DNA from: Corallococcus macrosporus DSM 14697
Lineage (GTDB): Bacteria > Myxococcota > Myxococcia > Myxococcales > Myxococcaceae
Direction of reading: 5' to 3'
Assembly: GCF_002305895.1 (NCBI RefSeq)
Contig: NZ_CP022203.1
Span: forward strand, 8,760,001 to 8,824,000
Length of the DNA: 64,000 bases
The position numbers and the translations under genes are program-made. This document shows, piece by piece, positions 44,278-50,079 of this stretch (the stretch's first letter is position 1; each line of letters begins with the position of its first letter). The notes below the pieces were generated by a model. That model was not told the DNA's origin. It did not search any database and saw only the letters and a list, made by a program, of their open reading frames with translations.

Positions 44278-44318
44278 GCCCGGGCGCCACCCGGGCACGC
44301 GAGCGGCCGCGTGCCCGG
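44278..44318 (+). promoter_or_regulatory. two overlapping, mutually exclusive hairpins after rocD
   Basis: Hairpin A GCCCGGG-N5-CCCGGGC (44278-44296) starts right after the TAG. Hairpin B CCGGGCACGC-N8-GCGTGCCCGG (44291-44318, 10 perfect pairs) shares bases with the right arm of A. They cannot form together. No T-run follows. This could end rocD transcripts or act as a switch before the ATPase pair that starts at 44398. Confidence 0.45.
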
Positions 44319-44397
44319 AGCCGCCGCACCGGGGCCTCGGTTGTCCCGACGTGTCACCTTCCGCACCGTGTGGGGGACAGCGCGCGGCGGTGGCGCT

Positions 44398-45360
44398 GTG
44401 ACAGGACGGTGGCCGGTGCTCGAAGCCCTCTGGGAGAGGCGTGCCCTGCTCGTGTCGGGCAAGGGAGGCGTGGGGAAGACGACGCTGGCGGCGGCGCTGG
44501 CCGTGGCGGCGGCGCGCTCGGGCCGCACCGTGCTGCTGGCGGAGCTGGCGCCGGAGGAGGAGGGGCCCTCGCCGCTGGCGAGGCGGGTGGGCGCGCGTGA
44601 GGCGGGGCCCCGGGTGACGCGGGTGCGCCCCGGGCTCCACTTCGTGCGGCTGTCCGCGGCGGAGGGACACCGGCGCTTCCTGGAGCGCGCCCTGCCCGCG
44701 AGGTGGCTGGCCGACGCGGCGCTGCGCACCCGCGCCCTGCGCCGCTTCCTGGAGGCCGGGCCGGCGCTGCGGGAGATGGGGCTGATGTACCAGATGCTGG
44801 CCCTGCTCCGGCTCACCCGGCCGGATGGGCGCTTCGTCCACCCGCTGGCCGTCGTGGACCTGCCCGCCACGGGCCACGCGCTGGCGTTGGCCGCCCTGCC
44901 CCAGCGGGTGCTGTCGCTGATGCCCGGCGGGCCCATTGGGCGGGATGTCCGCGAGGGGCTCGACTTCCTTCAGGACCCGGCGCGCACGGCGGTGGTGCTC
45001 ACCAGCCTGCCCGAGCCGCTTCCCGTCAGCGAGGCGCTCACCGTGGCCGCCGAGCTGCGCCGGCTGGAGCTGCCCTTGTCGGTGGCCGTGCTCAACCGGA
45101 TGCCGGAGGACCCCTTCACGCCGGAGTCACGCGCCGCGCTGCGCCGGCTGCTCGCCGCGCATGGGCCGCATCAAGGGAGCCACGCGCTGGCGCGAATCGA
45201 GCGGGCCCGGGCCGCCTCCGCGCGGCTGTCGCGGGCGCTGCGCGCGCCGCTGCTCACCCTGCCGGAGCTGCCTGTCACGGGCCCCGCGCTGGTGGATGCG
45301 CTCGCGGCGGGCTTCGCGCCGCGCGCCGAGGAGGCACTGCCGCGAGAGGCGCTGCCGTGA
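44398..45360 (+). CDS. Get3/ArsA-family ATPase, first of a coupled pair
   Basis: About 320 residues, P-loop SGKGGVGKTT with the intradimer signature lysine of the deviant Walker A family. Where Get3 and ArsA have the switch I DPAH motif, this has AELAPEEEG, so that switch is lost; later VVDLPATGHALAL replaces DTAPTGHTLR. It ends with a LPLSVAVLNRMPEDPFTPE strand typical of the family. Start uncertain: GTG at 44398 used, GTG at 44416 equally possible. The TGA overlaps the GTG of the next ATPase. Non-identical neighbours of this kind suggest a heterodimer, as known for the mycobacterial Rv3679/Rv3680 pair. Confidence 0.8.
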   Translation: MTGRWPVLEALWERRALLVSGKGGVGKTTLAAALAVAAARSGRTVLLAELAPEEEGPSPLARRVGAREAGPRVTRVRPGLHFVRLSAAEGHRRFLERALPARWLADAALRTRALRRFLEAGPALREMGLMYQMLALLRLTRPDGRFVHPLAVVDLPATGHALALAALPQRVLSLMPGGPIGRDVREGLDFLQDPARTAVVLTSLPEPLPVSEALTVAAELRRLELPLSVAVLNRMPEDPFTPESRAALRRLLAAHGPHQGSHALARIERARAASARLSRALRAPLLTLPELPVTGPALVDALAAGFAPRAEEALPREALP

Positions 45361-46481
45361 GCGCGGGCGACCTGCGGCGGCTGCTCGACGACAAGCGAAT
45401 CATCGTCCTGTGTGGCGCGGGCGGCGTGGGCAAGACGACGACGGCGGCGGCCCTGGGCGTGGCCGCCGCGCGCGCGGGGCGCCGGGTGCTGGTGCTCACC
45501 ATCGACCCGGCGCGCAGGCTCGCGGAGACCATGGGCCTCCAGGAGAGTGGCCCCGAGCCCACCGCCATTCCCCCCGAGCGCCTCTTCGCAGACGGCCCCC
45601 AGGGCCCCGGCCAGCTCGACGTGTGGATGCTGGACCCACGCGCCATCTTCGAGCGGATGGTGCACCGGCTCGCGCCCTCGCCCGACGCGGCGCGCGCCAT
45701 CGTCGAGCACCGCCTCTACCGCTTCCTCTCCGAGCTGGTGGCGGGCGTGCAGGAGTACGCCGCCGCGGAGGCCCTGGACGACTTCCTCGCGGAGGGCCGC
45801 TACGAGCTCATCCTGCTGGACACGCCCCCCAGCCGGCACGCGCTGGACTTCCTGGACGCGCCCGGCCGGCTGGCGCGCTTCCTGGATGAGCGCATCGTGT
45901 CGCTGTTCACCCCGGAGCGGCGCACGCGCGGCGGGCGGCTGTGGCAGGGCGCGCAGGTGGTGGTGGACCGCGTCCTCGCGGGCATCTTCGGCGCCCGCTT
46001 CACCCAGGAGATGCGCGGCTTCATCGGCGCCTTCGGTGGCCTCTTCTCCGGCATGCGGCTGCACACGGAGCGGCTGCGTCACCGGCTGGCCTCACCCGAC
46101 GCGGCCTTCCTGCTGGTGACCTCTCCCGAGCCCGCCTCCCTGCGCGAGGCCACCTGGTTTCGCGAGACGCTGGCCCGGCGCGGCCTGCCCTTCGCCGGCT
46201 ACGTGCTGAACCGGAGCTGGGCCCATGACGACGTGCTCGCGGCCCCGGAGGCCCTGCTGGAGCACACGGGGGGAGACCGCCACGCGGAGCACGCCGTGGC
46301 GGCCCTGTCCCGCCTGGCCGCCCTGGAGCAGGAGCGCGCCAACGCCCACCGCGCCCTGCTCCACCGCCTCGCCCAGCACCTCCCCACCGGGACGCTCGCG
46401 GTGGCCGTGCCGGACGCGGGCGCGGAGCTGGAGGAGTTCAGCGGCCTGGTGCGCCTGGGAGACGCGCTGGCCGCGGGCTGA
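45357..46481 (+). CDS. Get3/ArsA-family ATPase, second of a coupled pair
   Basis: A 374-residue ATPase with P-loop CGAGGVGKTTTAAALG: the signature lysine before the second glycine is Ala, the reverse of its partner. The switch I motif is present as TIDPARRLAETMG, and switch II as LLDTPPSRHALDFLDAP. A helical insert (RFLDERIVSLFTPERR...GFIGAFGGLFSGM) corresponds to the client-binding domain region. GTG start in a GTGA overlap with the first ATPase. The complementary loss of one motif in each subunit is strong indirect evidence of an obligate heterodimer. Client unknown; tail-anchored proteins or small molecules are guesses. Confidence 0.82.
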   Translation: MSAGDLRRLLDDKRIIVLCGAGGVGKTTTAAALGVAAARAGRRVLVLTIDPARRLAETMGLQESGPEPTAIPPERLFADGPQGPGQLDVWMLDPRAIFERMVHRLAPSPDAARAIVEHRLYRFLSELVAGVQEYAAAEALDDFLAEGRYELILLDTPPSRHALDFLDAPGRLARFLDERIVSLFTPERRTRGGRLWQGAQVVVDRVLAGIFGARFTQEMRGFIGAFGGLFSGMRLHTERLRHRLASPDAAFLLVTSPEPASLREATWFRETLARRGLPFAGYVLNRSWAHDDVLAAPEALLEHTGGDRHAEHAVAALSRLAALEQERANAHRALLHRLAQHLPTGTLAVAVPDAGAELEEFSGLVRLGDALAAG

Positions 46482-47773: not shown

Positions 47774-48592
47774 CTACGCCACCCCGGTGAGGACCACGGA
47801 GTCGCCCGTCTCGGACACGGTGAACTTCTTGAGGGGGATGGTGGCCGGGCCCTGCGTCACCGCGCCGTCCTTCGTGAAGATGGACGCGTGGCAGGCGCAG
47901 AACAGGTCCGCCTCCTGCTCGCGGTAGTTCACCTCACAGAAGGCGTGGGTGCACACCGAGTCCACCGCCGACAGCGAGCCGTCCTGCAAGCGGAACACGA
48001 AGATGCGCTTGCCGTAGCCGGACGGCACGCCCGTCACCGAGCCGCCCAGGCCGCGAAGCTGGGGGAAATCGCTGAACGGCAGTACCACCTGCCCGTCCAC
48101 CGCGGGCGGGAAGTCGCTCTGGCCCGCGCGCAGGTTGATGCGCACCACACCGGTGTTCGGGTTGTACTCGGCCGCGAAGGTCTGCAGCGGCACGGTGGCC
48201 GGCCGCTGGAGCACCGAGCCATCCGTGGCGCTGAAGCGCGACAGGTGGCAGGGGCAGATGACGTCCTTGCCGTCGAAGCCCAGCGGGCAGCCGACGTGCG
48301 TGCAGAGGGACGACAGCACGGAGAAGTCGTCCGGCGCGCCGTCATCCTTGGAGTGCACCACCAGCAGCGGCACCTGCTCACCCGGGACGCGCACCGTCAG
48401 CGCGCCGCCCACGGGCTCCAAATCCGGATAGCGCGACACCAGGATGTCCACCGTTCCCGCGTCGCTGGCGGTGACGTCCGTCACCGGAGCGGGGTTGATG
48501 TCCGGCGCGCAGCCCGGCAGCGTCGTGGCCGCCGCGCTCGCCGCGCCTGTTCCCAGAATGCCCTTGAGGAATCCTCGTCGCGTCGAACTCAC
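47774..48592 (-). CDS. tandem double-Rieske [2Fe-2S] Tat lipoprotein
   Basis: A 272-residue exported iron-sulfur protein. Tat motif STRRGFLK then a lipobox TTLPGC (Cys28). Rieske domain 1: CTHVGCPLG (Cys97, His99, Cys102) and CPCHLSRF (Cys113, Cys115, His116). Domain 2: CTHAFCEV (Cys214, His216, Cys219) and CACHASIF (Cys232, Cys234, His235). Each has the CxH...CxxH ligands and an extra Cys pair for the stabilising disulfide, so both clusters should be real. The GTG start overlaps the stop of the YceI gene (GTGA). Two Rieske centres in one chain are unusual and imply electron relay at the periplasmic face. Confidence 0.9.
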   Translation of the reverse strand: MSSTRRGFLKGILGTGAASAAATTLPGCAPDINPAPVTDVTASDAGTVDILVSRYPDLEPVGGALTVRVPGEQVPLLVVHSKDDGAPDDFSVLSSLCTHVGCPLGFDGKDVICPCHLSRFSATDGSVLQRPATVPLQTFAAEYNPNTGVVRINLRAGQSDFPPAVDGQVVLPFSDFPQLRGLGGSVTGVPSGYGKRIFVFRLQDGSLSAVDSVCTHAFCEVNYREQEADLFCACHASIFTKDGAVTQGPATIPLKKFTVSETGDSVVLTGVA

Positions 48593-49167
48593 GTCCCCTC
48601 CACCTCGAACACCAGCTTGGGCTCCAGCACCAGGAGGTCATCCACCTTCACCATCATCAGCGAGGGGCGCTCGACGTTGTAGGCGTCCAGGCTGATGTCG
48701 AAGGTGCCCTCGGCCACCGCCTCCTTCTCCGACTTGAACTCCACCGTCATCGGAATCTCCACGGTCTTCTTCACACCGTGGAAGGTGAGCTGGCCCTTCA
48801 CCTTCACCGGCACCTTCGCCGGGAAGCTCTTGGGCGTCTTCACGCCCGTGGCCACGCCCTTGAAGTCGATGATGGGGAACTTCGCCGCGTCCGTGGTCTC
48901 CATCATGTGCGCGTCGCGGTTGGCGTTGCCGGAGTCGAAGTCCTTCACGTTGGCGCGCACCGCCACCTGGAGGGTGCCATCCGGCAGCAGGCGGGCCTTG
49001 CCGTCGCTGGGCGGCGCCTTGCCCACGACCTCGTGCAGCTTGTGCTTCAGCTTGTAGGTGAGCGAGCTGGCGTCCTTCTTGACGTTATACGTGCGGGCCT
49101 GCGACTGCGCGACTGCGGGCAGCGCGAGCACCAGGGTGGCGATCAGGGCGATTCGTCGAGCAATCAC
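48589..49167 (-). CDS. YceI-family periplasmic protein
   Basis: A 192-residue protein with signal sequence VIARRIALIATLVLALPAVAQSQA and a YceI/lipocalin-like beta barrel: TYNVKKDASSLTYKLKHKLH, NRDAHMMETTDAAKFPIIDF, TFHGVKKTVEIPM, FDISLDAYNV. YceI proteins bind isoprenoid quinones and related polyprenoids. The GTG start at 49167 is chosen because GGAGG is five bases upstream. It sits between a b561-like membrane protein and the double-Rieske protein and overlaps the latter by four bases, so quinone binding in a shared electron chain is a reasonable inference. Confidence 0.88.
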   Translation of the reverse strand: MIARRIALIATLVLALPAVAQSQARTYNVKKDASSLTYKLKHKLHEVVGKAPPSDGKARLLPDGTLQVAVRANVKDFDSGNANRDAHMMETTDAAKFPIIDFKGVATGVKTPKSFPAKVPVKVKGQLTFHGVKKTVEIPMTVEFKSEKEAVAEGTFDISLDAYNVERPSLMMVKVDDLLVLEPKLVFEVEGT

Positions 49168-49206
49168 GTCAACCTCCAGGGAAACCACTGCGAAAGGCGT
49201 TGCGCT

Positions 49207-50079
49207 TCAGAAGAACAGGGTGAACACGCCGGCGGACACGGCGCCCAGCGTCACGTAGCCGGAGATCTGGTGCGCGGTGGCCAGGTCCGTTTCGGACAGG
49301 CGGCCGAAGCGGTCCGTGGCCATGATGCCCAGGACGATTTGCGCCACCATGCCGACGGTGGCGAGCGCCATGAACATCTTGTGGACGGTGATGGTGTCCC
49401 ACTGGAACTCCTTCTCGAAGGGTTCCGGCGCCAGCAACCCCAGCAGGCCCACGGAGGCGAACAGCGCCGAGGTGCCGATGGCGAGCCCCCGGTGGAGGCC
49501 CAGCAGGTTGCGGTCATCACCGCCGCCGCGGAACGAGTCGTTGAACTGGAGCTGGCCCACCACCGTGGTGCCCACCAGGCCCGCGGCCATGGCGAAGCCC
49601 AGGCCCTGGTGCAGCTTGAGCATGGTTCGGCGCCGGCCGATGCGCTTCTCCAGGTCCGGGTCCACCTGCGCGGCGGTCGCGGCCTCGGCGGGCTCCAGCA
49701 GGTCGAAGTCCAGCGAGTCGCCTCCTTCCGCCGGCGCCTCATCGGACTTCTGGACCGTGGGCGCGTCCTCCGTGGGAGCCAGGGGCCTGGCGGGCTCCAC
49801 CTGCATCGTGGGCCGCGCGGGCTGGACCGCCGGAGCGCCGACCTGCTTCGAGTCCACCGCGGGCGCGGCCTTCTTCCGGCGGGTGGCCTTCTTTCCGGCC
49901 TTGGCCTTCGACGAGGCCCGGGTCGTCTTGCCCTTGGTGGCCTTCGTCTTCGCGGCCTTGGAGGAGGACTTCACCGCCCGGGTCTTCTTCGCGGACTCAG
50001 TCTGGCTCCGCTGGGCCCAGGCAGTGTGTGGTGCGGCAATCAACGACAGGACGACGAAGAGCGCTGCAAAGCGGGTCAT
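49207..50079 (-). CDS. b561-like four-helix membrane protein with basic periplasmic linker
   Basis: A 290-residue protein. Signal peptide MTRFAALFVVLSLIAAPHTAWA, then a Lys/Ala/Arg-rich H1-like stretch to about residue 65 and an acidic-proline linker to 130. The C-terminal 150 residues hold four hydrophobic helices, each with a His at a comparable position: MLKLHQGLGF, LGLHRGLAIG, TVHKMFMALA and ATAHQISGYV. That pattern fits a two-heme cytochrome b561-type core. GGAAAAGCC precedes the ATG. It is the first gene of a three-gene operon with YceI and the double-Rieske protein. Confidence 0.78.
   Translation of the reverse strand: MTRFAALFVVLSLIAAPHTAWAQRSQTESAKKTRAVKSSSKAAKTKATKGKTTRASSKAKAGKKATRRKKAAPAVDSKQVGAPAVQPARPTMQVEPARPLAPTEDAPTVQKSDEAPAEGGDSLDFDLLEPAEAATAAQVDPDLEKRIGRRRTMLKLHQGLGFAMAAGLVGTTVVGQLQFNDSFRGGGDDRNLLGLHRGLAIGTSALFASVGLLGLLAPEPFEKEFQWDTITVHKMFMALATVGMVAQIVLGIMATDRFGRLSETDLATAHQISGYVTLGAVSAGVFTLFF

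Follow-up and report, generated by a model that had tools for sequence, protein, structure and literature searches.

The closest described counterpart of the locus analyzed here is the LcoA-BcnA system, in which the genes for a b561-type protein (LcoA) and a YceI lipocalin (BcnA) are linked or fused (Naguib et al. 2022, PMC9113575). In Burkholderia cenocepacia, the system protects membranes from lipid peroxyl radicals, and lipid peroxidation is elevated in mutants of bcnA and of lcoA; fusions of b561 with YceI occur in alphaproteobacteria, and YceI proteins have been observed to contain Ubi-8 (PMC9113575). Re-reduction of the lipocalin-held quinone by LcoA was proposed in that study but was not tested there experimentally (PMC9113575). 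The b561-YceI pair is widespread and its electron path is unsolved; EPR-active Rieske clusters would allow this path to be followed directly. The gene cluster described below is of moderate interest because the Rieske clusters that it adds to the pair make the electron path testable.

The window, that is, the entire stretch of 64,000 nucleotides analyzed, spans positions 8760001-8824000 of a complete 8.97 Mb genome from Myxococcus, a genus of predatory soil bacteria. Within it, three genes, all on the minus strand, follow each other in the order b561-like four-helix membrane protein (49207..50079; 290 aa, comprising a signal peptide, a variable tail and a core with four His), YceI-family periplasmic lipocalin with a signal peptide (PF04264; 48589..49167) and double-Rieske [2Fe-2S] Tat lipoprotein (47774..48592; 272 aa, with RRGFLK...LPGC28). 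The YceI gene lies 39 nt downstream of the b561-like gene and has a GTG start after GGAGG, and its stop codon overlaps the GTG start of the Rieske gene in a GTGA sequence (48589..48592, minus strand), through which the two genes are likely to be translationally coupled. The spacing and the overlap agree with the initial annotation, which had described the three genes as coupled or close. The layout is the same as in LcoA-BcnA (yceJ-yceI in E. coli), a conserved pair with the membrane b561-type gene directly upstream of the YceI gene. The b561-YceI pairing itself is thus already known; what sets the window cluster apart is a different b561-like protein and the addition of the double-Rieske lipoprotein, Rieske proteins being unmentioned in PMC9113575. 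Our literature searches, which covered papers available without subscription, returned no link between YceI and Rieske proteins, no double-Rieske protein of this kind and no b561-YceI-Rieske combination. Elsewhere in the window, at 44311-46481, two adjacent ORFs contain the P-loop motifs GKGGVGKTT and GAGGVGKTT and resemble ArsA/Get3-type ATPases.

In genome searches over the host's order, with a core profile used for the b561 orthologues, all three components (the b561 core, YceI and the double-Rieske protein) proved to be widespread, and linkage was counted from the positions of strong, near full-length matches. The b561 and YceI genes are at most 2.5 kb apart in 79 of the 79 species that have both (median gap, 65 nt), and all three genes occur together in 60 species, with a median YceI-Rieske distance of 3 nt; the counted species span several families of the order but are related, so that these counts are not independent events. 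Thirteen species carry the b561-YceI pair without a Rieske gene, which is therefore not essential to the pair. Together with the complete linkage of b561 and YceI, this distribution shows that these two genes form the constant unit, to which the Rieske gene is added as an accessory partner. Gene-order conservation was the check that the initial annotation had named for its reading of the three genes as one functional unit, and the order is indeed conserved.

The core of the membrane protein (residues 140-290; 49210..49662, minus strand) was modelled as four helices with a pLDDT of 94. It contains exactly four His residues, at 157, 196, 233 and 270 (core positions 18, 57, 94 and 131; spacing 39/37/37), one near the start of each predicted helix, and none of the four varies among 33 homologues, which reach down to ~35% identity. 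The four-His four-helix protein with a diheme-like pattern that had been noted initially is supported by these features. Because each helix has one His at its start and the direction of the helices alternates, the model would accommodate a pair of bis-His sites, one near each face of the membrane, with His157/233 on one side and His196/270 on the other, the same arrangement as in diheme b561 proteins. The protein probably binds heme, as a putative diheme protein of the b561 type.

Comparison with the b561 families nevertheless leaves the protein outside both. A Pfam scan of the window membrane protein gave no family over threshold, including both b561 families, PF03188 and PF01292. Among the 33 homologues of the core, 8 weakly matched PF03188 (best E 5.2e-4) and 6 weakly matched PF01292 (best E 8.6e-4), in both cases below the cut-off, and the NCBIfam model LIC_13387 had weak matches in 9 of the 33 cores. 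A Foldseek search of the core against the PDB yielded nothing significant, with common four-helix bundles only, a core-profile sequence search of the PDB gave no match, and neither did a tblastn search of the core on plasmids. Structural alignment of the core with plant cytochrome b561 (4o6y_B, residues 40-177) gave a Z score of 10.7 over 133 residues (rmsd 3.0), a range in which generic helix bundles also score; in hhalign, the same comparison reached a probability of 9.6%, with the first two core His paired with the last two of 4o6y. In the eukaryotic cytochromes b561 (PF03188; 4o6y, human Dcytb), as in the window protein, the core consists of four helices, each with one His. The spacing of the 4o6y His residues, which we take to be about 33/34/39 (counted from the printed sequence, with the first ligand taken as known), is similar as well. 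In contrast to these cytochromes, the window protein shows only sub-threshold similarity, lacks the flanking helices, and possesses a signal peptide and a long tail with an FDLL motif. It also differs from LcoA/YceJ, which belong to PF01292, whereas the window core, with one His per helix, has no PF01292 match and an hhalign probability to YceJ of 0.3%; this value and the sub-threshold PF01292 matches of the homologues leave the core unsupported as a plain YceJ/CybB relative. Overall, the membrane protein looks like a b561 protein and yet can be assigned to neither b561 family. The cluster also points to a second b561-like lineage that has acquired the same YceI partner.

The N-terminal part of the membrane protein begins with the predicted signal peptide MTRFAALFVVLSLIAAPHTAWA|Q (50014..50079, minus strand), the cleavage position being predicted as well, and hydrophobic N-termini are present in most orthologues. 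The tail comes after this signal peptide and is therefore presumably periplasmic. It includes a K/R-rich, low-complexity stretch at about residues 31-70 (49870..49989, minus strand), which is unconserved, some orthologues having just 2-6 K/R residues in the whole tail. The initial annotation had pointed to a basic H1-like stretch; the stretch exists, but it belongs to a lineage-specific tail and gives no evidence of nucleic-acid binding, and its location after a signal peptide and lack of conservation among orthologues led us to reject an H1-like nucleic-acid binder. The conserved element of the tail is an F-[DEN]-[LF]-[LVF] motif, mostly LDFDLL, that is located 9-21 residues N-terminal of the core in 30 of the 30 orthologues (shuffled mean, 0.14; maximum, 3). 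In the window, the LDFDLL codons are at 49696..49713 (minus strand), and the coding pattern of the FDLL motif occurs only once in the genome. We consider this motif a candidate docking site.

The second protein matches PF04264 (E 1.9e-20, Pfam), in agreement with its first description as YceI, and aligns to the BcnB structure 5ixg; by analogy, its ligand may be a quinone or another isoprenoid.

In the third protein, Pfam detects two PF00355 stretches (E 2.9e-23), the Tat signal model TIGR01409 matches over the cut-off, and the lipobox is LPGC; the structural model has a pLDDT of 89, and its Foldseek matches are Rieske structures. Both Rieske motif pairs are complete, C97-T-H99-V-G-C102 ... C113-P-C115-H116 in domain 1 (48245..48304, minus strand) and C214-T-H216-A-F-C219 ... 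C232-A-C234-H235 in domain 2 (47888..47953, minus strand). In 30 homologues, the two-domain architecture is kept and all eight cluster ligands are invariant. This agrees with the initial reading of a Tat lipoprotein in which both Rieske motifs are complete, and judging by these ligands, clusters would assemble in both domains. In a phylogenetic tree, all first domains split from all second domains (96/94 support), which indicates that both domains have been retained since one duplication and that the pair is old. Single-domain Rieske proteins (PetC3, the Chlorobaculum and Kuenenia Rieske proteins, and AioB of arsenite oxidase) share the fold and the ligand motifs, whereas the window lipoprotein holds two anciently separate domains and its gene cluster includes no cytochrome b or molybdenum partner. 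The potential-raising Ser is conserved in most homologues, and the Tyr position is occupied by Phe in all domain 1 copies and most domain 2 copies. A Rieske protein with the Ser/Phe combination was measured at +335 mV, and the potential of menaquinol is about -70 mV (PMC12954380); by analogy, both Rieske clusters are probably of high potential. The lipobox +2 residue is mostly Ala among the homologues.

Double-Rieske paralogues also occur without b561 or YceI. In locus L049 (827-4287), they adjoin DUF1552 and DUF1588/DUF1585 genes, and in locus L054 (1172-4569), such a paralogue adjoins genes that are weakly DUF1501/DUF1549-like. These DUF-associated paralogues suggest a second partner system, and the double-Rieske protein is accordingly not specific to the b561-YceI module.

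The bc1-type cytochrome b family PF00033 had no match in the whole genome, whereas control genomes gave matches. The genome thus encodes no standard bc1 complex, which rules out a role of the Rieske protein as a bc1 subunit and agrees with the initial proposal of an electron path distinct from cytochrome bc1. Four NrfD-type genes are present in the genome and are candidates for alternative complex III, and a single true b561 gene of the PF01292 family is located elsewhere.

On balance, and with moderate confidence, we favor an interpretation by analogy, in which the gene cluster encodes an LcoA-BcnA-like envelope electron-transfer module with a Rieske relay, acting in the defence against lipid radicals. 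The inner-membrane b561-type protein, which probably carries two hemes, would deliver electrons to the periplasmic side and would probably draw them from the quinol pool. On that side, the YceI lipocalin would shuttle a quinone or another isoprenoid, and the lipid-anchored double-Rieske protein would relay electrons one at a time. The module would probably serve to maintain an antioxidant of the periplasm or outer membrane in its reduced state and to quench lipid-derived radicals. We infer heme and cluster assembly, topology, the quinone ligand of YceI, the direction of flow and the physiological role for this module as parts of the same scheme. Myxococcus uses menaquinone, and flow toward the Rieske protein fits because transfer from menaquinol, or from heme b, to a Rieske cluster with the potential known for the Ser/Phe combination would run downhill.

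The main rival explanation, which we regard as possible if unlikely, is a quinol-oxidising electron output with a role in respiration or redox balance, not in antioxidant defence. Here, menaquinol would be oxidised either by the b561 protein or, via YceI-bound quinol, by the Rieske protein, and the two Rieske clusters would pass the electrons to a periplasmic or outer-membrane acceptor, such as a cytochrome c, a metal or partners of the DUF1552/DUF1588 type. Such an output is consistent with the missing bc1 complex, with the conserved tuning Ser and the expected high potential of the Rieske sites, with the position of double-Rieske paralogues next to DUF1552/DUF1588/DUF1585 genes, and with the Ala at lipobox +2, which by the E. 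coli rule would be compatible with outer-membrane sorting. However, no cytochrome c gene was seen in the cluster, the b561-YceI pair often lacks a Rieske gene, and the four NrfD-type genes imply that the main quinol oxidase may sit elsewhere. Another arrangement, which we put forward as a speculation of low probability, is a trans-envelope quinone-shuttle wire that would operate without bc1 or multiheme cytochromes. In such a wire, the b561-like diheme protein of the inner membrane would reduce (mena)quinone, YceI would carry it across the periplasm, the double-Rieske lipoprotein anchored in the outer membrane would exchange electrons with this quinone, and the FDLL motif in the b561 tail would assemble the parts.

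It is improbable, in our estimate, that the membrane protein is a heme-free, structural four-helix anchor, with YceI and the Rieske protein acting independently: the core has no confident family or fold assignment, which is in line with such an anchor, but it retains exactly four His, one per helix and invariant to ~35% identity, and is constantly linked to redox or quinone genes. Least probable of all is a structural or degenerate second Rieske domain with only one cluster in use, given that, although two homologues have lost the whole disulfide Cys pair of domain 2 and one species has a single-domain version of the protein, the four domain 2 ligands are invariant in all 30 homologues, including those without the disulfide.

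Two Anaeromyxobacter-like loci, L039 (6153-7612) and L040 (6196-7424), carry a divergently oriented gene pair between the b561 and YceI genes, consisting of an ECF-type sigma factor (confirmed by Pfam in L039) and a DUF4384-like protein. The inserted pair could possibly regulate the YceI-Rieske genes in these loci. Finally, BNCN01000018.1 (L008), which is titled Comamonas sp. KCTC 72670, contains a Myxococcus gene cluster with a Rieske protein that is 85% identical, and the name of this entry looks wrong.
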